Source of the DNA: an uncultured Lysobacterales bacterium
GTDB lineage: Bacteria > Pseudomonadota > Gammaproteobacteria > Xanthomonadales > SZUA-36
Direction: 5' to 3'
Length of the DNA stretch: 42,924 bases
Assembly (NCBI GenBank): GCA_947258865.1
Contig: CAMYKC010000040.1
Location: 11,459 to 54,382, forward strand
In this document: positions 7,985 to 19,753 of the stretch, in pieces
Position numbering within the stretch: the first letter of the stretch is position 1
How the letters are laid out: every line of letters begins with the position of its first letter
Program-made: the position numbers and the translations under genes
Notes under the pieces: generated by a model
Seen by the model: the letters and a program-made list of their open reading frames with translations, nothing else
Told to the model about the DNA's origin: nothing
The model's database searches: none

Positions 7985-8886
7985 AATTGTGGTTAAAAAT
8001 TGTCCTCGTGGCGCTCGGCCTCATCCTTGCAGCCGGATTGTACCTGTTCAGTGAAGTGCATAGCCTGCGTAGCGAACAGCTCACGAAAGACGTTCACGTG
8101 ATTTTCGGCATGGGCGGAAATGTCGGTGTGCTCAGAACCGATGCCGGCACCGTGATCGTCGACACCATGACACTGAAATACCAGGGAAAACGGATTCGTA
8201 GAGTGGCTGAGGAACTGACCGGCAAGCCGGTGGTTGCGATCATCAATTCCCATTACCACATGGATCATACCCACGGCAATCCGGCTTTCGAGGCCGGTAT
8301 GCGGGTGATCTCCACGGGGCGCACGCTGCATCACATCAAGACCGTGGATTCCGACTATTTCTCTGGCGAAGCAGCAGCCTTGCTGCCCAATCAACTACTC
8401 GAAAACCGGCAAACCAACACCGTGGGAAACAAGACCATTGAGCTGCTACCGACCGGTCCGGGCCACACGGACGGAGACCTGGTGGCCCTGTTCGTCGAAG
8501 ACAGAGTACTGCACACGGGCGATCTCTATTTCAACGGGCTTTACCCCAACATCGACCTGGAGGCAGGCGGCTCTGTCGTTCAGTGGAGCGCCGCGATCGA
8601 CCAGGCGCTGGAACTCCCCTTCGACCGCATCATTCCCGGCCATGGCGAGGTCAGTGGGCGGAATGAAATGCTTCAGTTCCAGCGGTTCATGAACCAACTT
8701 GCCGAAGTTGGCCGCAAGGCCGCTGCCGAAGGGTGGACCAGGAAGCAGACCCAACAATCCGCAGAACTGACCGAAGATGAAGGCTACCGGGACGTCAAGA
8801 TGCTGGTTTTCACCATCCTGGACCGGGAATTCGTGCTGGGGCGCGCCTGGGATGAAGCGACGGAAGGTTTTGAGCTAAGAAACTGA
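7981..8886 (+). CDS. Membrane-anchored or exported metallo-beta-lactamase-fold hydrolase
   Basis: The 301-residue product starts with a hydrophobic segment (residues 4-23), which reads as a signal anchor or signal peptide, followed by an MBL domain with a full set of metal ligands: HYHMDH (His91, His93, Asp95, His96), GHTDGD (His162), Asp181 in HTGDLYF, and His221 in PGHG. The start at 7981 forms an ATGA overlap with allA. The frame is open upstream to 7696 only inside allA in another frame. The substrate is not identifiable from sequence. Coupling to the ureidoglycolate lyase gene hints at a role near purine catabolism, but this is inference. It converges with hisIE and overlaps it by 12 bp. 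Confidence 0.88.
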   Translation: MKLWLKIVLVALGLILAAGLYLFSEVHSLRSEQLTKDVHVIFGMGGNVGVLRTDAGTVIVDTMTLKYQGKRIRRVAEELTGKPVVAIINSHYHMDHTHGNPAFEAGMRVISTGRTLHHIKTVDSDYFSGEAAALLPNQLLENRQTNTVGNKTIELLPTGPGHTDGDLVALFVEDRVLHTGDLYFNGLYPNIDLEAGGSVVQWSAAIDQALELPFDRIIPGHGEVSGRNEMLQFQRFMNQLAEVGRKAAAEGWTRKQTQQSAELTEDEGYRDVKMLVFTILDREFVLGRAWDEATEGFELRN

Positions 8887-9510
8887 TTCATGCCGGGCCC
8901 TGAGCACAGAAGTCACATCAGATAATTCCAGGCCGCCGGCGCGGAGCAGGACCAGCAAGTGGTACAGCAGGTCAGCGGTTTCGTTGACCAGTTCCTCGCG
9001 ATCGCCGGCGGTTGCCGCCAGCGCTGTTTCCACACCTTCCTCGCCCACTTTCTGGGCAATCCGCCTGATGCCGGCCTCGAAAAGCTTCGTCGTGTAACTG
9101 CCTTCCGGCCGATCGGATTCGCGTTGGGCGATCAGGCGTTGCAAGCTGGCCAGGAAGGCGAGACGAGGAATGACCTTCTCCTCTTCATCGAAGCAGGTAT
9201 CGGTGTTGCGATGGCAGGTGGGGCCATGGGGGGTGGCCAGCACCAGCAGGCAGTCACGATCGCAATCCGCATGAACCGCGATCAGTTCGAGCCTGTTTCC
9301 CGAGGTTTCGCCCTTGGTCCACAGTTGTTGACGGCTGCGGCTCCAGAACGTCACGTTGCCGGTCTCGATGCTGTGTTCCAGCGCGTCCGGGTCCATAAAA
9401 GCTTGCATCAGCACCCGGCCATCGAATGCGTCCTGGACAATGGCAGGCAACAGCCCATCCATTTTCTCCCATTCGAGCTCATCGATATCCTGTTTGTTTT
9501 CGATCAACAT
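8875..9510 (-). CDS. hisI: Bifunctional phosphoribosyl-AMP cyclohydrolase / phosphoribosyl-ATP pyrophosphatase HisIE
   Basis: HisIE performs steps two and three of histidine biosynthesis. The N-terminal HisI domain (about residues 10-115) has [26 protein letters not shown] and [10 protein letters not shown] with metal-binding residues. The C-terminal HisE domain (about 120-205) has [20 protein letters not shown] followed by the [17 protein letters not shown] helix. It is the last gene of the his operon, overlaps hisF by 7 bp, and its 3' end overlaps the convergent MBL gene by 12 bp. No separate terminator is visible at this crowded junction. Confidence 0.96.
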
Positions 9511-10295
9511 GGGCGTACCTCGATGCCGGCGGCAGCCAGCGATTGCTTCAGTTCGGGTATCGGGATCTGGCCGGAGTGAAACACGGTGGCGGCCAGGGCG
9601 GCGTCGACGTCCGCTTCGTCGAATACTGCGATGAAGTGTTCCACGGCGCCAGCGCCTCCCGAGGCCACCAATGGGATCGGGAGCAATCTCCGGGCGGCGC
9701 CGAGTTGTTCGATGTCATAACCAGCCCGCGTCCCGTCCGCGGACATACAGTTCAGCACGACTTCGCCGGCGCCGCGGTCGACGACCTCCCGCAGCCAATC
9801 CAGCGTTTCCCTGCCGGGTGTTTTCATCGCGTCGGGTGTGCCGGTATGTGATCTCACGGTGTATGCCTCGCCATCCGCGATCGAATCTACCCCGATAACG
9901 ACGCACTGGCTGCCGAAAGCCTTGACCAGTTCGTCGATCAGGCCGGGGTTTTCCAGCGCCGGCGTGTTGATGGAGATTTTGTCCGCACCCTGTCCCAGGA
10001 CTTTGGCCGCGTTATCGACGCTGCGGATACCGCCGGCCACGCAAAATGGAATATCAATGGTTTCCGATACCCTGCGCACCCAATCGACGTCCACGCTGCG
10101 GCCCTCGGGGCTGGCGGTGATGTCGTAAAAGACCAGTTCGTCGGCGCCTTCGTCACGGTAACGGGCCGCGAGTTCAATGATGTCGCCCATGACCCGATGG
10201 TTGCGGAACCGCACGCCTTTGACGACCTGGCCCTCGCGGACATCGAGGCAGGGGATGATGCGCCGCGCTAGTTTGTGTTCTGTCGCGGAGCTCAT
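9504..10295 (-). CDS. hisF: Imidazole glycerol phosphate synthase cyclase subunit HisF
   Basis: HisF uses ammonia from HisH to make imidazole glycerol phosphate and AICAR. The 263-residue TIM barrel starts with [20 protein letters not shown], where the Asp in CLDV is the conserved catalytic residue, and contains [61 protein letters not shown] and [10 protein letters not shown]. It overlaps hisA by 4 bp upstream and hisIE by 7 bp downstream. The length is typical and no defect is visible. Confidence 0.97.
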
Positions 10296-11032
10296 GAGAG
10301 AAATTCCAAAGCTTCGGCAACCGTGAAACAGCCCTCCAACAGTGCCTTTCCGGTGATGGCTGAATCGACACCGGTGCTGGCGAGATCACGAAGGTCCAGC
10401 AGCCCGCTGACTCCACCCGAGGCCTGCACGGCCAGTTCCGGGTAACGCTGCGTGATCTCTACGTACAGGTCTACGTTGGGTCCGGTCATGGCGCCATCCC
10501 TGCCGATATCGGTGCACAGAACATGTTTCAATCCCTTGTCGGAGTAAAAATCCAACAATTGCCAAAGACTCTGTTCAGAATGCTGGGTCCAGCCATGCGT
10601 GCGTGGCCAGGGAATTCCATGCTCGTCGAGCTTGACATCCAGCGCTGCCACGAGCATGTCAGCCCCGAATTCTTCAATCCAGGCGGCGAATCGTCCTGGC
10701 TGAACGATGCTGATGCTTCCCACAACGACCCGGCTGGCCCCATGCTCAAGCCGCAACTTGATGTCGCCTTCATCGCGCACCCCGCCCCCCGTCTGTACTT
10801 GTTGTGGTGCGCTTTTTAGCAGCCGCAGCAGGGGCTTGATGTCCGCGCCTTCGCCATCGCGCGATGCGGCCAGGTCGACGACGTGCAGCCACCGGGCGCC
10901 TTCCTCGGCGTACACATTAGCCAGCTTTACGGCGTCCAGGTCGTAGACCTTGCAGTTGTTGAAGTCACCGTGGAGCAGGCGCACGCAACTGCCGTCCAGA
11001 AGATCGATGGCTGGAATTATGTCGATGCTCAT
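10292..11032 (-). CDS. hisA: Phosphoribosylformimino-AICAR ribotide isomerase HisA
   Basis: HisA isomerises ProFAR to PRFAR, the substrate of HisHF. The 246-residue TIM barrel opens with [20 protein letters not shown] and has [44 protein letters not shown] and [10 protein letters not shown]. The frame is open upstream to 11176, but the ATG at 11032 gives the conserved family start and makes an ATGA overlap with the hisH stop. Its 3' end overlaps hisF by 4 bp. Confidence 0.96.
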
Positions 11033-11625
11033 GTCAGGGGGGTCTCCAGGAAACCGCGCAGCAATTCGGCTCCGGCCTTCGCCGAACGTTCCGGGTGGAA
11101 TTGTGCGCCGTAGAAATTGTTCCACCTGACGATTGCGCTGAATGGCCTGCCATGATGGCTGGTGGACAGAGTCCAATCACCGATGGGGGCCGCGTATGAA
11201 TGTACGAAATAGAACCATTTTCCATCCAGTGGATCGGCCAGGCTGTCTTGTTTCCTGTTGGAAATGGCATTCCATCCCATGTGCGGCACCCTCAGTCCTG
11301 CTTCTTCATGCAAGCGCGTGAGCCGTCCCGGGATCAGTCCAAGCATGCGGGCATTGTCTTCCTCGGAGGACTCGAACAGCAATTGCATGCCAAGACAGAT
11401 GCCGAGTACCGGTTGCTGCAGCTTACGGATTACTTCCACCAGCCCGTGCTGGTTGAGAACTTGCATGGCCCTGCCGGCGGCGCCGACACCGGGAAGGATC
11501 ACCCGTTCCGCGTCACGGATTACCGAAGCGTCATCGGTGAAGGCCGGCTCGGCTCCAAGCCTGCGCAAGGCATGCAAAACCGAAGAAATGTTCGCGCCTC
11601 CACTGTTAACGACCGCGACTGTCAT
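11029..11625 (-). CDS. hisH: Imidazole glycerol phosphate synthase glutaminase subunit HisH
   Basis: HisH is the class-I glutamine amidotransferase that supplies ammonia to HisF. The 198-residue product starts MTVAVVNSGGANISSV, has the nucleophile loop GICLGMQLLF with the catalytic Cys, a PHMGWNAI segment, and YGAQFHPERS with the His of the catalytic triad. It overlaps hisA by 4 bp and hisB by one base, keeping the HisH-HisF pair near each other in the operon. Confidence 0.97.
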   Translation of the reverse strand: MTVAVVNSGGANISSVLHALRRLGAEPAFTDDASVIRDAERVILPGVGAAGRAMQVLNQHGLVEVIRKLQQPVLGICLGMQLLFESSEEDNARMLGLIPGRLTRLHEEAGLRVPHMGWNAISNRKQDSLADPLDGKWFYFVHSYAAPIGDWTLSTSHHGRPFSAIVRWNNFYGAQFHPERSAKAGAELLRGFLETPLT

Positions 11626-12698
11626 CAGAGCATTCCTTTTGTGCTCGGCAGCTCGCTACCTTGCCTGGCCAGGGCCGGTCTCAGTGCCCGCCCGGTACCC
11701 TTGAACAGGGCTTCGATCATGTGATGCGTGTTTTCACCGCTCACCTGCAGGTGTATGGCAGCGCCCAGCGACTGGCTGAGCGAAGCAAAAAAGTGCCGCA
11801 CCATCTCGGTGGAGAATTGCCCGACACTGTCCCGTGGGAAATCGGCTTCGAAGACGATGGCCGGGCGGCCGGAAAGATCAATAGCCACTTGCGCCAGCGA
11901 TTCATCCATCGGCAGCAGGAAGCCGTAGCGGCCGATTCCACGGCGGTCACCCAGAGCCGAATTCAGGGCTTGTCCCAGGGCCAGTGCGCAATCCTCAACC
12001 GTGTGATGTTCATCTATCTCGAGGTCGCCGTTGCAATCAAGTTCGAGTCTGAAGCCGCCGTGGCTGGCCAGTTGATCGAGCATGTGGTCGAAAAATCCAA
12101 TGCCGGTCTCCACCTGGCTGCTGCCGCCGCCGTCCAGGTCCACAAGAACCCGGATAGCGGTTTCATTGGTGTTCCTTTCCACCGTTGCCCGCCGCGGCCG
12201 GTTGATCAGGCGGTGCGTAATCGAGGCCCAGTCCTCGTGACCATCACCCAGGCGCAGTCCACCAATGCCCATGTTTTCAGCCAATTGCATGTCGGTCTCA
12301 CGGTCGCCGATGACCCAGCTGTCCGCCAGGTCCAGTTCGCCGGACTTCAGGTAGTCCAGCACCATTCCGATACCCGGTTTGCGCGTCGGCGCATTGTCAT
12401 GTTCGAAATGCGGATCAACATGAACGGCGCTGAAATTGATACCCTGCGACTCGAAAATATCGATCATTTTCTGTTGCGGTATTTCGTAATCCCGCATGGG
12501 AAAGGAGTCGGTACCAAGGCCATCCTGATTGCTGACTATGACCAATTCGTAGCCGGCCCCGGCGAGTTCAAGCAGGGCCGGAATAACACCAGGCACCAGT
12601 TCCAGTTTTTCCAGAGAGTCGTACTGCTCGTCAGGCGGCTCGACAATGAGTGTGCCGTCCCGGTCGATAAAAAGAATGCGTCGCTTCTTGATGCTCAC
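11625..12698 (-). CDS. hisB: Bifunctional histidinol-phosphatase / imidazoleglycerol-phosphate dehydratase HisB
   Basis: The 357-residue product is a two-domain enteric-type HisB. The N-terminal HAD phosphatase (about 1-165) has ILFIDRDGTLIVEP with the nucleophilic Asp, VIVSNQDGLG and a WVIGDRETDMQLAENMG motif. The C-terminal IGP dehydratase has GIGFFDHMLDQLASHGG and DEHHTVEDCAL metal-binding segments. The frame is open to 12833, but the GTG at 12698 gives the family N-terminus, overlaps the hisC stop as GTGA and has GGGAG a few bases upstream. It catalyses steps six and eight of the pathway. Confidence 0.96.
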   Translation of the reverse strand: MSIKKRRILFIDRDGTLIVEPPDEQYDSLEKLELVPGVIPALLELAGAGYELVIVSNQDGLGTDSFPMRDYEIPQQKMIDIFESQGINFSAVHVDPHFEHDNAPTRKPGIGMVLDYLKSGELDLADSWVIGDRETDMQLAENMGIGGLRLGDGHEDWASITHRLINRPRRATVERNTNETAIRVLVDLDGGGSSQVETGIGFFDHMLDQLASHGGFRLELDCNGDLEIDEHHTVEDCALALGQALNSALGDRRGIGRYGFLLPMDESLAQVAIDLSGRPAIVFEADFPRDSVGQFSTEMVRHFFASLSQSLGAAIHLQVSGENTHHMIEALFKGTGRALRPALARQGSELPSTKGML

Positions 12699-13780
12699 CT
12701 TGTGCTCTCCCACTCGTCCAGGGCGGCGGAAAGTGCCGCGATGTCGTTTTCGGAACCCACCGAGATACGGATGCAGCCGCGCAGCATGGGGTCGGCTGGA
12801 AAGCCGCGGAGAACCAGGTTGCGCTGCGCGCAAAAAGCGAGCAGTTCTTCCGCTTCATCGACCCGGATCAGCACGAAATTGGCCTCGCCCGGGATGAGAT
12901 TACGGATGAACGGGCGGTTCTCCAGCACCCCTATCAGGACACGCTTGTTGTCGCTGATCTGCTGCAGCAGATTTTGCTGCTTTTCGAGCATGTCCCGGCC
13001 CAACATGCGCAAAGCCAGAGCAACCACCGGGCTGGGTAGCGGGTAGGGCGCGATGACGCGACGAAGCAATGCAATGGCCGCCGGCTGGGCAAGCACAACG
13101 CCACAACGCAGTCCCGCGGCCGCCCAGGCCTTGGACATGGTGCGTAAAACCACCAGGTTCTCGTTGGCGGTGATCATCCCGGATGCCGAGGGCTGCCGGC
13201 AGAATTCGGCATAGGCTTCGTCTACGATGACGAGCGCGCGGTTTCTGCTCACCCGCAGCAGTTCCTCCAGATAATCCTCGCCAATGACGTCGCCAGTGGG
13301 GTTATTGGGCGAGGTCAGAAAAACGAGCTTGATACGCTGGTCATCCTGCAGGGCATCCAGCATAGCCTGCCTGTCGAGACTGAAACTGCCGTCCGGCATT
13401 CTCGGTACGGAAACAACTTCCGCGCCCTGTGTCTGTGCCGCAATCCGGTACATTCCGAACGTCGGTGGACACTGCAGGATGGCATCCTGACCGGCGCGGC
13501 AGAAAACCCGGGTTAACAGGTCAATGCCTTCATCGCTGCCGCGGGTCATGAGCACCATCTCTTCGGGTACCTGATAAAGGTCTGCCAGGCGCGCGAGCAG
13601 GTCGGCGGGCTGAGGATCGGGATAGCGGTTCAGTTCGGCGCCGATAAGGGTGTCGCTCAGCAGCGGCCAGGGGGCCTCGTTGGCATTAAGTAATATTCCC
13701 TTGCCGGGCGCTTCCGTCCTGGCGGAAGAGTAGGGCTTCATCGCCACGATCTCGGGCCGGGCCAGTTCAACAATGCCCAT
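12695..13780 (-). CDS. hisC: Histidinol-phosphate aminotransferase HisC
   Basis: HisC is the PLP aminotransferase converting imidazole acetol phosphate to histidinol phosphate. The 361-residue product has ILLNANEAPWPL near the start, RGSDEGIDLLTRVF, FLTSPNNPTGD, VIVDEAYAEF, and RTMSKAWAAAGLRCG, which contains the lysine that binds PLP. It lies directly after hisD with a one-base TAATG overlap and couples to hisB through GTGA. It appears intact even though the upstream hisD is broken. Confidence 0.96.
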   Translation of the reverse strand: MGIVELARPEIVAMKPYSSARTEAPGKGILLNANEAPWPLLSDTLIGAELNRYPDPQPADLLARLADLYQVPEEMVLMTRGSDEGIDLLTRVFCRAGQDAILQCPPTFGMYRIAAQTQGAEVVSVPRMPDGSFSLDRQAMLDALQDDQRIKLVFLTSPNNPTGDVIGEDYLEELLRVSRNRALVIVDEAYAEFCRQPSASGMITANENLVVLRTMSKAWAAAGLRCGVVLAQPAAIALLRRVIAPYPLPSPVVALALRMLGRDMLEKQQNLLQQISDNKRVLIGVLENRPFIRNLIPGEANFVLIRVDEAEELLAFCAQRNLVLRGFPADPMLRGCIRISVGSENDIAALSAALDEWESTR

Positions 13781-15100
13781 TAGTTTTCACCCACTGAATC
13801 GAGCCGCGCCCGAACCGCCATTCTGTGAGCATCCAGACCTTCCACGGCGGCGAGTTTTTCGGCTGTCGGACCAACCCGTTCAAGAGCGTCGCGGCTGGCT
13901 TGCTGGAACGTCATGCGGCGCATGAAATCACCGACGCCGAGTGCGCCATGGGATCTGGCCCAGCCGTAAGTCGGCAATACGTGATTCGTACCCGAGCAGT
14001 AGTCCCCCAGAGATTCCGGAGTCCAGGGGCCGACGAACACCGAACCGGCGTTTTTTACCTGGGCGGCAAGTTCCTGGGCACTGGCCGTGTTGAGGATCAG
14101 GTGTTCCGGGGCATAGTCGTTGGAGAGTTTCACTGCCTGGTCCAGATCGGCCACCCGGATGATGCGGCACGCGGACAGGGACTTCTCCAGGATGGCCGCC
14201 CTCGGCGAAGCAGGCGCCAGCCGGCCAAGTTGTTCGATGACGGAATTCGCCAATTGCTCACTGTCGGTCAGGAGGATGACTTGCGAGTCGGGTCCGTGCT
14301 CTGCCTGCGAGAGCAGGTCGGGCGATGAACTCGGCATTAGCACTGGAATCCGCAATCACCAGAACTTCGGATGGGCCGGCCGGCAGATCAATCGCCGCAG
14401 CCCGGGGATCCTGCGATACCTGCTGCTTGGCTTCAGTCACCCAGGCATTGCCGGGGCCAAAGATTTTTGCGCAGCGGGGTATGGATTCCGTGCCGTAGGC
14501 CATCGCTGCCACAGCCTGCGCCCCGCCTGCGCAAAAAACACCACTGACTCCGCAAAGGTAAGCGGCTGCCAGGATTTCAACGGCAATCTTGCCGTCCTTG
14601 CCTGGCGGAGAACACATGACGATTTCATCGCAGCCGGCCAGCACGGCCGGTATCGCCAGCATCATGACGGTCGAAACCAGCGGTGCGCTGCCGCCCGGGA
14701 TGTATAGACCCACCGGAGAAAGTGGCTGGTAGTGAACTTCACAAGTCAGTCCGGGCGCGGTTTCGACGGCCGTTTTCGCCGGCATATCGGACTTGTGGAA
14801 TGTCCGGATACGCTCGCTGGCAGTCTGCAATGCCCTGACCAGTGGCTCGTCAACGGTTTGTGCGGCCGACCGTAAAGTCGCCAGGTCGGCTTCGACTACC
14901 TGGGGTGAAACGCCGTCCAATTCCCGGGTCAATTCAGCCAGCGCTTTGTCCCCGCCCTCACGAACGCGGCGCACGATCGCGGCAACGGAATCAGCCAGCC
15001 CGGGGTGCTCGAAAACCGGACGCTCCAGTACGAGGGCCTGTTCCTTTGAGTCCAGGCCGGACCAATGAATCGTATTCAGCTTGCTAAGCATTTTCTTCAT
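13780..15100 (-). pseudogene. hisD: Histidinol dehydrogenase hisD, interrupted by a frameshift
   Basis: Histidinol dehydrogenase makes the final two oxidations to histidine. The first frame (15100 down to about 14320) encodes the N-terminal two thirds and ends in PAGPSEVLVIADSSANAEFI. A second frame (about 14326 down to 13780) continues with DLLSQAEHGPDSQ, YAPEHLIL, GPWTPESLGDYCSGTNHVLPT and a normal C-terminus. The break lies at 14317-14326. Restoring two bases, for example GCC-GCC-GAC in place of GCC-C-GAC, rebuilds the expected FIAADLLSQAEH and a 440-residue protein, the normal length. Everything else in the operon is intact, so a very recent mutation or a sequencing/assembly error is likely. 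The start may be 15100 or 15091. The gene follows hisG by 20 bp. Confidence 0.9.
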
Positions 15101-15120: not shown

Positions 15121-15999
15121 TCAGGCGAGCATTTTTTCCACCGGCAGCACCAGGATGGCGGACGCTCCGACGGCTTTGAGCGCCTCGAGGTGCTCCCAGA
15201 AAACCGTTTCACCACAAACAGCGTGAATGGCGATCCGCTCGGAGCCCTCCAGCGGCATGATCGAGGGGTGCTCGACGCCGGGGAGAAGCTCGGTGATTTT
15301 TTCCAGTGCATCCCGCGGCGCGTGCAGCATCACGTACTTGCTTTCAGAGGCGCGCATTACGCCGTTCAAACGCGAAAGCAGGCGATCCAGCAACTCCTGC
15401 TTGGTTGCGGAAATGTCGTTGACCCGGCCATACAACGCAGCCTGGCTTTGGTACAGCACTTCCAGCTCTTTGAGGTGGTTTGCCCTCAGGGTCGTTCCGG
15501 TCGAGACCAGGTCGGAGATAGCGTCCGCCGTTCCCATGCTTGGCGCAATTTCCACGGAACCGGACAGTTCCACGATTTTTGCACCGACGCCTTGTTGTTC
15601 GAGCAGGTAGCGGGTCAGCTCCGGGTAGCTGGTGGCAATTCTCATGCCTTCCAATTCGCTGAGTAACGAGATTTCCAGGTCTTCGGGAACCGCGATGGAC
15701 AGGCGGCAGTGGCCAAAACCCAACTTGCGCAGTCGCTTCAGTTCTGACTCACCGTCCCTTTCCAGCATGACTTCGCCGGCAATGTTCTCACCGACGATAC
15801 CCAGCTCGCAGACGCCGTCCAGCAACAGCCGTGGTATATCATCGTCACGGACCAGCAGCAGGTCGACCGGAAAGTCCTGGCCATACCAGAATAGCTTGTC
15901 CTTGCTGCGGGCAAAGCGCAGGCCGCAACCCATCAGGAGTTCCTGCGACCGTTCTGAAAGTCGGCCGGATTTTTGAATGGCTACTCTTAATCGACTCAT
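15121..15999 (-). CDS. hisG: ATP phosphoribosyltransferase HisG (long form)
   Basis: HisG catalyses the first, feedback-inhibited step of histidine biosynthesis. The 292-residue product is the long form, with a C-terminal regulatory domain in addition to the two catalytic domains. Visible segments are RLRVAIQKSGRLSE at the start, CELGIVGENIAGEV near residue 90, RIATSYPELTRYLLEQ near 120, and DAISDLVSTGTTLRANHL, the PRPP-binding region, near 160-180. The ATG overlaps the stop of the upstream TrpR-like gene by one base (TAATG), so enzyme and regulator are co-transcribed. Confidence 0.97.
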   Translation of the reverse strand: MSRLRVAIQKSGRLSERSQELLMGCGLRFARSKDKLFWYGQDFPVDLLLVRDDDIPRLLLDGVCELGIVGENIAGEVMLERDGESELKRLRKLGFGHCRLSIAVPEDLEISLLSELEGMRIATSYPELTRYLLEQQGVGAKIVELSGSVEIAPSMGTADAISDLVSTGTTLRANHLKELEVLYQSQAALYGRVNDISATKQELLDRLLSRLNGVMRASESKYVMLHAPRDALEKITELLPGVEHPSIMPLEGSERIAIHAVCGETVFWEHLEALKAVGASAILVLPVEKMLA

Positions 16000-16310
16000 T
16001 ATTCATTCTTCCCCAGGCGATCCAGGACGGCACGATAGCCTCCCGTGCCCTGTTCCATGAAACGCGCTACCCGACCTATGGTAGTGACACTGACCTCGGT
16101 CATTTCCCTGATCTCACGATAGGACAGGCCCTTGTCCAGCAATTGGGCGACCCGCCATCGATCCACCATCGCCTCGATTTCCGCCGGCGTGCACAGGTCT
16201 TCCAGGAACTGCTTCACACCCTGGGCCGTGTCCAGTGTCAGCAGGGCTTCGGATAAGGACCGGGCCGCTGTCTTCAACTCATCTTTCTGTGATTGGTCGT
16301 GTTGTTTCAT
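15999..16310 (-). CDS. TrpR-family (YerC/YecD-like) regulator heading the his operon
   Basis: The 103-residue product is a small helix-turn-helix protein of the TrpR superfamily: LCTPAEIEAMVDRWRVAQLL, then a DNA-binding unit with LSYREIREMTEVSVTTIGRVARFM. YerC-like proteins lack the tryptophan role of TrpR, and relatives named HisR have been linked to histidine genes by comparative genomics (from memory). As first gene of the his operon, overlapping hisG by one base, it is a strong candidate for a histidine-responsive autorepressor. The ATG at 16310 was chosen because it gives the usual family length. No clear Shine-Dalgarno site precedes it. The frame extends upstream to 16421 across the promoter, which I reject. 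Confidence 0.88.
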   Translation of the reverse strand: MKQHDQSQKDELKTAARSLSEALLTLDTAQGVKQFLEDLCTPAEIEAMVDRWRVAQLLDKGLSYREIREMTEVSVTTIGRVARFMEQGTGGYRAVLDRLGKNE

Positions 16311-16321
16311 ACCGTGATAGT

Positions 16322-16339
16322 GTATTAATGTGTTAATAC
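16322..16339. promoter_or_regulatory. Candidate operator of the TrpR-like his regulator
   Basis: This is a perfect inverted repeat, GTATTAA-TGTG-TTAATAC, 18 bp long and 12 bp upstream of the regulator's start codon. Its size and layout match the trp operator bound by TrpR (two 7-bp arms around 4 bp). It starts right after the predicted -10 element, so bound protein would cover the transcription start. Assignment to the adjacent regulator is inference from position and symmetry. Confidence 0.65.
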
Positions 16340-16345
16340 GTTGGT

Positions 16346-16374
16346 ATGGTAAGGCATCATGCGGCAGAGGGCAA
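16346..16374 (-). promoter_or_regulatory. Predicted sigma-70 promoter of the his operon
   Basis: On the minus strand TTGCCC (16374-16369) and TACCAT (16351-16346) are separated by 17 bp. Each matches the sigma-70 consensus at four of six positions. The predicted start lies at about 16339, at the edge of the palindromic operator, giving a leader of about 30 nt. No long leader with a His-codon run is present, so classical attenuation is unlikely and repression by the TrpR-like protein is the simpler model. Confidence 0.5.
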
Positions 16375-16469: not shown

Positions 16470-17231
16470 ATGAACCCAGGTATATGGACCGGAGCAGTTC
16501 TTTTGTTGCTTTCCACTTCCCTGACCGCAGACGTCAAGGAAACGGAGGAAATGACCTTTGAAGTCAATACAGGCGCGCGTGTCAGCCTGGAAAACATCAA
16601 TGGCGATATCGTTGTCACCGGTGGTTCAGGTGACAAGGTCGAAGTGCTGGCAAAGAAAAAAGCGGGCACCCAGGAATACCTCGACGGAATCAAAATTGTA
16701 ATCGATGCCGATGAGGACTACATCCGCATCGAAACCCGGCATCCCAAGAGCGAAGATGGCTGGTTTAAATGGGGCAAGGACAGCAGCGGAAGCGTCGCCT
16801 ATGAATTGAGCGTTCCCGTGCACGTCAATCTGGATGAAATTGAGACGGTCAATGGCGATGTCGAAATCAGCGCTGTCGAAGGCAAGGTGAAGGCGTCAAC
16901 CGTCAACGGCTCAATTGATGTCAGGGGGCTGGTGTCCGATGTGAATCTCGAGACGGTGAATGGAAGCGTAAAAGCCGAATTCGACGAACTCGGGGCAGGT
17001 CAGCGCGTCCAGGCAGAGGCCGTGAACGGCAAGATCGTCATTGTCATTCCCGCGAATGCCAGCGCGCGTATCAATGCCGAAACCGTGAATGGCAGCATCA
17101 ACGCGGATGACTTCGGGCTCGAGCCGGAAAAGGGCTTCGTGGGCCGCGACCTCTCCGGCGAGATTGGCGGCGGTGATGCCCGTATTTCACTGGATACTGT
17201 GAACGGATCAATCCGCATCAACAAGAAGTAG
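16470..17231 (+). CDS. Exported DUF4097-type beta-strand repeat protein
   Basis: The 253-residue product has an N-terminal signal peptide (about residues 5-20). The rest is built of short beta-strand repeats centred on a (T/I)NG or VNG turn, with Asn at about residues 44, 128, 146, 164, 186, 207 and 245; several are spaced 18-22 residues apart. This pattern is typical of DUF4097/adhesin-like beta-helical proteins. Function in the envelope is unknown. The start at 16470 has AAGGAG about nine bases upstream. It is transcribed divergently from the his operon with about 160 bp between. The last repeat ends only four residues before the stop. Confidence 0.8.
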   Translation: MNPGIWTGAVLLLLSTSLTADVKETEEMTFEVNTGARVSLENINGDIVVTGGSGDKVEVLAKKKAGTQEYLDGIKIVIDADEDYIRIETRHPKSEDGWFKWGKDSSGSVAYELSVPVHVNLDEIETVNGDVEISAVEGKVKASTVNGSIDVRGLVSDVNLETVNGSVKAEFDELGAGQRVQAEAVNGKIVIVIPANASARINAETVNGSINADDFGLEPEKGFVGRDLSGEIGGGDARISLDTVNGSIRINKK

Positions 17232-17350: not shown

Positions 17351-18053
17351 ATGCCAGAAATTCAATGGCGCGGGGTCTTTCCAGCCCTGACGACAAAATT
17401 CACTGCCGCTGATGAAATAGATTGGGATGCCATGGCGAGCCATCTCGAATTCCAGCTCGATGCTGGCGTTCACGGTCTGATCATCCTCGGTTCACTAGGC
17501 GAAAATGCAACATTGAGCACCCGGGAAAAACGGGATATGGTCCGCTTTTTCGCCGGCGCTGATCGCAGGGGTTTGCCGCTCATAGCCTGTATCGCAGAAT
17601 CGTCCACTCGGGATGCAAAGGAGTTTGCGGTTGCCGCCGAGGATGCCGGCGCGGATGGCTTCATGCTTCTGCCCCCGATGCGCTATCTCAGCGACCGTCG
17701 AGAGACCGTGACATTCCTTAATGAAGTGACCGCGGCAACATCCTGCCCCATCATGCTCTATAACAACCCGGTCGCATACGGCACCGACATCCGGCCTGAA
17801 GATTTCGCCCGCCTGGCGGACAATCCGAGGTTCGAGGCGATCAAGGAATCGGCCGCAGACACCCGTCGTATTACCGATATCCGTTTGCATTGCGGAGACC
17901 GGCTTGCCCTGTTCTGCGGGAAGCGCCAAAGTGCGGGCGCCAAGACTTCAACTGACTGAAGCCGAGGCGTCCCGTGTCGAAAAAATACTGGCAGGCGCTC
18001 TGGAAAATCGTCCTCACATCGAGGCCCGGCGGACCTCTGAACCGCTGATCTGA
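17351..18053 (+). pseudogene. DapA-family aldolase/deaminase gene with an internal deletion
   Basis: The first 190 codons read as a dihydrodipicolinate-synthase-family TIM barrel: GVFPALTTKF near the start, GSLGENATLS as the pyruvate-site loop, PIMLYNNPVAYGTD, and AIKESAADTRR with the Schiff-base lysine. After LALFCG the frame runs into 12 unrelated residues and stops at 17959. The family C-terminus resumes immediately in another frame (KVRAPRLQLTEAEASRVEKIL and on, to a stop at 18053). About 80 residues are missing between the two parts. In hydroxyproline catabolic clusters this family member deaminates pyrroline-4-hydroxy-2-carboxylate. Neighbouring GntR and epimerase genes support that role, now apparently lost. 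Confidence 0.82.
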
Positions 18054-18069
18054 TCAAGGCAAATATCTC

Positions 18070-18729
18070 ATGATTGCGGCAACTGCAAGAAAATCGAGCG
18101 CATTGAGCCTGGCGGAACAGGCCTACCGGATTCTGGAGGAAAAACTGGTCACCCTGGAACTGCCGCCGGGCACCGTGATTTCCGAGGGGCAGTTGATCGA
18201 TATTACCGGGCTTGGCCGCACACCGGTGCGGGAGGCGATGCAGAGGCTGGCTCAGCAGGAGTTGTTCCAGGTGATGCCTCGCAAGGGACTCCTGGTTACG
18301 CCCGTGAGCCGCCCCGGCATGCTGCATATCCTCGAGGCGAGGAAGCCCCTGGAGCGTGTGATCGTGTACCGTGCGGCGCTCAATGCGCGGGATGAGCAAA
18401 GGAGCGATCTGTCGTCGATCGCACGGGCTTTTACCATATCTCATGACAGCTTCGTGGAGTTCCTGCGACTGGTTTGCGAACTGGATGCCCTGCTCGACTT
18501 CTGTGCCGGTAATCCTTTTGCCAGCGCAGCACTGGCCCCCATGCGCAGCCACAGTCGCCGTTTCCTGTATTTTCATCGCAATCGCATGCAATTGTCCGAC
18601 GCAATTTCCGCTCATTCGAAGATGACCCGCTTGGTCGCCCGCAGGGACTACAACGGGGCGCAAAAGGCGTCGGACGGCGTGATTAGCGTGATGGAGCGAT
18701 TGGTGGCAAGTGTGGACAGGCTAGGCTGA
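18070..18729 (+). CDS. GntR-family (FadR/FCD subfamily) transcriptional regulator
   Basis: The 219-residue product has an N-terminal winged helix (residues about 12-75, with AEQAYRILEEKLV, GLGRTPVREAMQRL and a MPRKGLLVTPV wing) and an all-helical FCD ligand-binding domain behind it. The TPVREAMQRL motif is the hallmark of GntR recognition helices. It sits between the broken DapA-like gene and the hydroxyproline epimerase, 7 bp before the latter, and likely senses a substrate of that pathway. A candidate operator overlaps the promoter before the DapA-like gene. Confidence 0.9.
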   Translation: MIAATARKSSALSLAEQAYRILEEKLVTLELPPGTVISEGQLIDITGLGRTPVREAMQRLAQQELFQVMPRKGLLVTPVSRPGMLHILEARKPLERVIVYRAALNARDEQRSDLSSIARAFTISHDSFVEFLRLVCELDALLDFCAGNPFASAALAPMRSHSRRFLYFHRNRMQLSDAISAHSKMTRLVARRDYNGAQKASDGVISVMERLVASVDRLG

Positions 18730-18736
18730 GAAGTCC

Positions 18737-19753
18737 ATGGCCGGTCCATCTCGAACAACCTTCCACTGCATCGATGCCCACACCTGCGGTAACCCCGTTC
18801 GCCTGGTCTACAGAGGCGGCCCGCAACTCGAAGGCGAAAGCATGCTGGACCGCCAACAGCATTTCATCGCCGAATACGACTGGATAAGAACATCCCTGAT
18901 GTATGAACCGCGCGGCCACGCCATGATGTCGGGGAGTATCCTGTACCCTAGCCATCGTGATGACTGCGACATCGGCGTGCTTTTCATCGAGACGTCGGGT
19001 TGTCTTCCTATGTGCGGACACGGCACCATCGGAACCGTGACCATGGCAATCGAGAATCGCCTGGTCGAGCCGCGTGTCCCGGGGAGCCTTAGCCTTGAAA
19101 CACCGGCAGGGAAGGTTTCCGTTTCCTACACCGAGGTAAACGGAAAAGTCCGTTCAGTGCGCCTGACCAATGTTTCTTCCTTTCTTCATTCCAGCGGCCT
19201 GGAAGTGGATTGTCCGGAACTCGGCGGCCCCTTGACCTTCGATGTGGCCTACGGAGGTAATTTCTACGTGATTATCGAGCCTCAGGAAAACTACCCCGGT
19301 TTGGAACGTCTGACTGCGTCGGATATTGTTCGCCTGAGTCCATTATTGCGTGCACGCATCAACGAGCGATACAGCTTCTCGCATCCTGACGATCACAGGC
19401 TGTCCCATTTGCGGCACGTGATGTGGACTGGCAGCCCGAAAAAATCGGGATCGGATGCGAGGAATGCGGTGTTTTACGGTGACGCGGCGATCGACCGGTC
19501 ACCCTGCGGCACTGGCACATCATCACGGATGGCCCAGTTGGCGGCTCGAGGCGAGTTATCCACAGGCGATACCTTTGTGCACGAAAGTTATATCGGCAGC
19601 CAGTTTACGGGGCGCGTCGAGAACACGGCCAGGGTAGGCGAGTATCCGGCCATTGTCCCCAGCGTTGAGGGCTGGGCGCGGGTATACGGACACAATATGA
19701 TCACCGTGGATCCCGAAGACGATCCCTTCTGGGAAGGATTCATAGTCACATGA
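18737..19753 (+). CDS. 4-hydroxyproline 2-epimerase (proline racemase family)
   Basis: The 338-residue product has both catalytic cysteines of the epimerase/racemase group: Cys93 in PMCGHGTIG and Cys257 in DRSPCGTGTSS. Dehydratases of the family replace the second-site Cys partner, so epimerase activity on trans-4-hydroxy-L-proline is the best guess. Proline racemase cannot be excluded by sequence alone. IDAHTCGNPVRLV at the N-terminus is typical. The gene follows the GntR regulator by 7 bp and overlaps the DUF885 gene by 4 bp (ATGA). The oxidase and semialdehyde dehydrogenase of the full hydroxyproline route are not in the window. Confidence 0.9.
   Translation: MAGPSRTTFHCIDAHTCGNPVRLVYRGGPQLEGESMLDRQQHFIAEYDWIRTSLMYEPRGHAMMSGSILYPSHRDDCDIGVLFIETSGCLPMCGHGTIGTVTMAIENRLVEPRVPGSLSLETPAGKVSVSYTEVNGKVRSVRLTNVSSFLHSSGLEVDCPELGGPLTFDVAYGGNFYVIIEPQENYPGLERLTASDIVRLSPLLRARINERYSFSHPDDHRLSHLRHVMWTGSPKKSGSDARNAVFYGDAAIDRSPCGTGTSSRMAQLAARGELSTGDTFVHESYIGSQFTGRVENTARVGEYPAIVPSVEGWARVYGHNMITVDPEDDPFWEGFIVT

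Follow-up and report, generated by a model that had tools for sequence, protein, structure and literature searches.

An inverted repeat, GTATTAA-TGTG-TTAATAC, located immediately upstream of hisR is predicted to be the operator through which HisR, a small TrpR-family repressor, controls its own gene and the his operon that follows it; this reading is given a probability of roughly 0.88. The repeat lies within the window, the whole stretch of 42,924 bp of DNA from an uncultured Lysobacterales bacterium that was analysed. When histidine is plentiful, HisR dimers would bind the operator and cover the transcription start just downstream of the -10 element, which would block initiation, and HisR would thereby limit its own synthesis along with that of all his enzymes. 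Two or three HisR dimers may lie side by side on half-sites spaced 8 bp apart, in a TrpR-like manner. HisR binding, histidine as the co-repressor, the exact transcription start and tandem occupancy are points that we infer from sequence. Autorepression of the whole operon by this small regulator was the proposal of the first-pass annotation; it is the natural reading and matches the prediction that Ashniev et al. (2022, PMC9413887) made for Proteobacteria.

The his operon and the HisR protein

The hisR gene heads hisGDCBHAF(IE) on the minus strand, and hisG directly follows it in the window and in nearly all relatives. The features of the locus are given below in window coordinates.

8875-12833, minus strand: block of hisB, hisH, hisA, hisF and hisIE, named from translations (ORFs 11625-12833, 11029-11625, 10292-11176, 9504-10295 and 8875-9510 respectively; start codons unrefined)
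12695-13780, minus strand: hisC, profile match
13780-15100, minus strand: hisD, split over two reading frames near 14306-14319
15121-15999, minus strand: hisG, profile match
15999-16310, minus strand: hisR (HisR/YerC, TrpR family), 103 amino acids, named from profile, sequence and fold matches
16314-16347, no strand: probable full operator, in which half-sites recur at 8 bp to either side of the core; outermost positions weaker
16318-16343, no strand: 26 bp of strong symmetric conservation (positions -4 to 21 from the palindrome start in minus-strand reading)
16322-16339, no strand: predicted core HisR operator, GTATTAA-TGTG-TTAATAC, unique in the genome and kept in 109 of 110 hisR loci
16346-16351, minus strand: predicted -10 element TACCAT, weak by consensus
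16369-16374, minus strand: predicted -35 element TTGCCC, 17 bp upstream of the -10
16470-17231, plus strand: DUF4097 (LiaG-like) gene, divergent from hisR

The only hisD of the genome consists of two overlapping frames that cover profile positions 1-224 and 221-393. The his operon is intact apart from this split, which is either a true frameshift or an error of the draft assembly. Beyond the DUF4097 gene, the plus strand from 17351 to 19753 encodes a DapA-family ORF with an early stop (202 amino acids, a match to roughly two thirds of the profile) together with a GntR-type regulator and a 4-hydroxyproline epimerase, and these genes are probably a hydroxyproline-use cluster.

The HisR protein passes the cut-offs of the YerC/YecD TrpR-related family (TIGR02531, 69.2 against 42.2 bits) and of the Pfam Trp_repressor family (PF01371, 89.7 against 27 bits) and fails that of the TrpR equivalog (TIGR01321, 32.8 against 67.25 bits). 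Sequence and fold searches, the latter run with an AlphaFold model of HisR (pLDDT 93.6), place the HisR-type structures 3KOR, 3G1C and 3FRW at the top, followed by E. coli TrpR. No second TrpR-like protein or true TrpR was found in the genome. In a residue alignment to TrpR, the positions of Arg69, Thr81 and Arg84, which we take to be the DNA-contact residues of TrpR, are invariant in 49 diverse HisR sequences of the order, as are those of Arg54 and Thr44. Gly85 and Ser88, which presumably form the indole (tryptophan) pocket of TrpR, are replaced by Val and Phe in the HisR of the window; across the order the replacements are Val/Ile for Gly85 and mostly Phe/Thr/Cys for Ser88. At the Arg69 position of TrpR, which is Arg65 in the HisR of the window, a HMMER alignment places Leu or Ala in the Gram-positive HisR structures, in contrast to the Arg of the Lysobacterales branch.

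Conservation and extent of the predicted operator

The letters at 16322-16339 are identical to those first reported. The 7-bp arms GTATTAA and TTAATAC pair perfectly around a 4-bp TGTG centre without palindromy, giving a 7+4+7 inverted repeat, and the earlier description as a perfect 18-bp palindrome therefore holds for the arms and not for the 18-mer as a whole. The A of the HisR ATG (16310, minus strand) is about 11-12 bp from the palindrome edge at 16322, in line with the 12 bp previously given. With up to three mismatches allowed, 0.22 copies of the palindrome pattern are expected by chance in the window and 1 is observed. Pattern searches of the 3.77-Mb draft genome find the perfect copy to be unique, all remaining matches having three mismatches.

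Footprinting upstream of hisR in related genomes, the check that the first-pass annotation had suggested, recovers the site almost without exception. Of 151 relatives searched, 123 gave a HisR; those with names are MAGs, mostly filed under Lysobacterales, and cultured members of Luteimonas and Lysobacter. Upstream sequence is present for 110 hisR loci, and GTAnTAR-YRYR-YTAnTAC is located just upstream of hisR in 109 of them, from 12 families of Lysobacterales/Xanthomonadales, although the genomes share descent and these counts are not independent events. Scored against GTANTARYRYRYTANTAC, 109 of the 110 loci reach at least 15 of 18 and 84 reach 18, compared with mostly 12-13 (maximum 16) for shuffled upstream regions and a maximum of 14 for hisG coding sequence. 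The conservation pattern is kept in a set thinned to less than 80% HisR identity (61 loci, 12 families). The exact pattern is present in 94 of the 123 HisR-positive genomes versus one of the 28 HisR-negative genomes, and it occurs once per HisR-positive genome with the exception of two copies in G112; a reversed-pattern control occurs in 3 of the 151 genomes.

The second G112 site (L152, position 2001) follows a gyrase/topoisomerase-like gene, and the site of the HisR-less genome G134 (L153, position 2001) precedes a GntR-type gene accompanied by an ABC transporter. No his gene is seen near either of these exact matches, which are probably look-alikes. In G007, G016, G020, G036 and G119, hisR and a window-like hisG are missing together, reflecting either auxotrophy or draft gaps. 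The few loci from alpha-proteobacterial relatives (L142, L143, L148-L151) exhibit a poorer fit to the core motif, and their runner-up match is in most cases offset by 8 bp from the top one.

The first-pass annotation had taken the operator to be 18 bp long; the site is real and conserved, and flank conservation together with 8-bp half-site repeats extends it past this length. Outside the palindrome, A at -3 and T at 20 are conserved in 89-94% of loci and Y at -1 and R at 18 in 100%, with weaker conservation of G/C at -8/25 and T/A at -7/24. Scoring of the core half-site restricted to the flanks gives a clear signal at register 8 on both sides and at no other register. At least five of seven positions of GTNYTAAY are matched by 68-70% of flanks versus 3-4% of shuffled flanks, and the two flanks of the window match five of seven positions each. 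In 103 of 109 loci the runner-up site lies 8 bp from the top-scoring one; shuffled flanks give about 55 such loci, a count that arises because the core has some 8-bp self-similarity. A purely promoter-driven origin of the flank conservation was rejected, as the maximum is at register 8 on either flank and the pattern persists in families whose promoter registers differ. Tandem TrpR dimers are spaced 8 bp apart, and the half-site repeats make tandem binding of HisR dimers probable; the outer GTNYT, the outermost five positions, is less convincing and by itself only moderately above background.

Promoter, leader and alternative readings

The end coordinate given in the first-pass annotation, 16374, is the first base of the predicted -35 element. 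The pair TTGCCC-17-TACCAT receives no score in a strict sigma-70 scan and matches 8 of 12 consensus bases. Across the loci, TTG-17-TAnnnT pairs cluster at four registers, with the -10 at -16, -12, -4 or +15 from the palindrome start, and, judged by these predicted elements, the operator stays in place while the promoter shifts among at least four registers. The -10 that had been called plausible next to the palindrome is weak, but its -12 register is kept throughout the closest relatives of the window (L005-L015). This register puts initiation at about the palindrome edge, so that a bound repressor would block it, and the transcript would carry the operator within a leader of some 30 nt. Families with the -10 at +15 have the operator between the two promoter elements, which predicts a message almost without a leader.

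The same site could in addition control the divergent DUF4097 gene within a shared two-way control region, and in many members of the family to which the window belongs a DUF4097 homologue flanks the operator on the side away from hisR. This extension is unlikely, given that the operator is positioned over the hisR promoter, about 130 bp from the DUF4097 ATG, and is kept in other families whose fetched flanks yielded no DUF4097 homologue.

The Shine-Dalgarno site reported as missing is absent before hisR order-wide. SD-like 4-mers precede hisR in 5 of 100 loci versus 14.5 expected from shuffles and precede hisG in 69 of 108 loci, so the absence is a conserved feature. It would also suit a palindrome that works at the RNA level, as a hairpin of the SD-less leader that controls translation of hisR instead of its transcription, and the leader can form a 7-bp hairpin (-6.1 kcal/mol for the 50-nt fold, z about -2.5). 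Such a hairpin is nonetheless very unlikely to be what the site is kept for: in the +15 families it would not be transcribed, absence of HisR goes with absence of the site, and the 8-bp direct periodicity and fixed YRYR spacer fit TrpR-type dimers on DNA and not a loop. As first reported, no His-rich leader peptide is seen upstream of hisR in the window; no terminator-like site is present there, and a search of Rfam for a leader RNA or riboswitch at this position gave no match.

Short AT-rich palindromes are common and a HisR-less genome carries the look-alike before a GntR-type gene (L153), but with near-universal conservation, a kept position and spacer, about one site per genome and loss together with hisR, the footprint already excludes chance as the origin of these sequences, and an operator of another regulator is, with no true TrpR in the genome, hardly credible.

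Comparison with known systems

HisR autorepression of the hisR-his operon can be set beside three described systems, the nearest being HisR itself. HisR (YerC) has been described as a repressor of Firmicutes and Proteobacteria, with Xanthomonadales among its carriers; its control of the his operon in Proteobacteria is a published prediction, and histidine-dependent binding was shown for the Ruminococcus protein (Ashniev et al. 2022, PMC9413887). The palindrome of the window, immediately upstream of hisR, is of the proteobacterial HisR site type given in that paper, and the circuit is thus not new, having already been predicted for this order. A literature search for a studied Xanthomonas HisR operator returned only this paper and the X. 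oryzae work cited in it. Compared with the published HisR, the host here is an uncultured member, the conserved operator exceeds 20 bp, its half-sites recurring at 8 bp to either side, and the promoter register and the absent Shine-Dalgarno site are added. The extended operator with 8-bp repeats, the sliding promoter and the SD-less start are not found in the available portions of the main text of Ashniev et al. (2022). The published Gram-positive operator cacTTTAnnnnnnTAAAgtg is without the outer G (PMC9413887), and this branch may have kept that base because a TrpR-type Arg69 is retained.

We lean slightly towards a fuller model in which proteobacterial HisR operators are arrays of about 34 bp, GTnYTAAY-GTAtTAAY mirrored, on which two or three dimers would stack at 8 bp like TrpR. 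The promoter would slide round this fixed array and the operator would fill an SD-less leader, giving a nearly leaderless hisR mRNA in some families, and retention of Arg69 would explain the outer G.

The system resembles E. coli TrpR and its trp operators in fold, in a mirrored half-site G-N-A-Y-T at 8 bp and in Arg69, Thr81 and Arg84. E. coli TrpR also binds as tandem dimers (1TRR; Carey 2022, PMC8745587), and the half-sites of the HisR operator have the matching 8-bp geometry. Unlike TrpR, the HisR of the window is below the equivalog cut-off, has Gly85 and Ser88 replaced and targets the his operon, in a genome with no trp repressor present.

As in enteric his attenuation, the his operon would be turned down when histidine is ample. 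Unlike the enteric his leader, however, the window has neither a leader peptide nor an attenuator, while HisR-less members of family f8 (L119, L126) have them. HisR was found in only one of the sampled f8 genomes, and the HisR-less members examined encode a divergent hisG (26-34% identity). At several f8 loci, His-rich leader peptides are followed by terminator-like hairpins, for example MNINLIALHHHHHHFIMDGAC in L126. These leaders were identified by visual inspection of peptide and terminator and are not recognised in an Rfam search. Two units of leader peptide and terminator-like hairpin precede hisG in L119, which are possibly tandem his attenuators; two His-rich leader peptides in a row are located upstream of hisG in L119, L120, L121 and L124. 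The contrast between repression and enteric attenuation that was drawn at the outset is supported by the presence of His leaders in HisR-less f8 and their absence from the window.

In about 100 genomes, a family of uncultured Lysobacterales among them, the survey confirms, as a prediction, repressor control of a his operon for which attenuation is the textbook mechanism. A sharper model of the operator is provided as well, with 8-bp tandem half-sites and an SD-less autoregulated leader. Within this one order, HisR control appears to have been exchanged in one family for a divergent his operon with attenuators, which would offer a natural comparison of both strategies.
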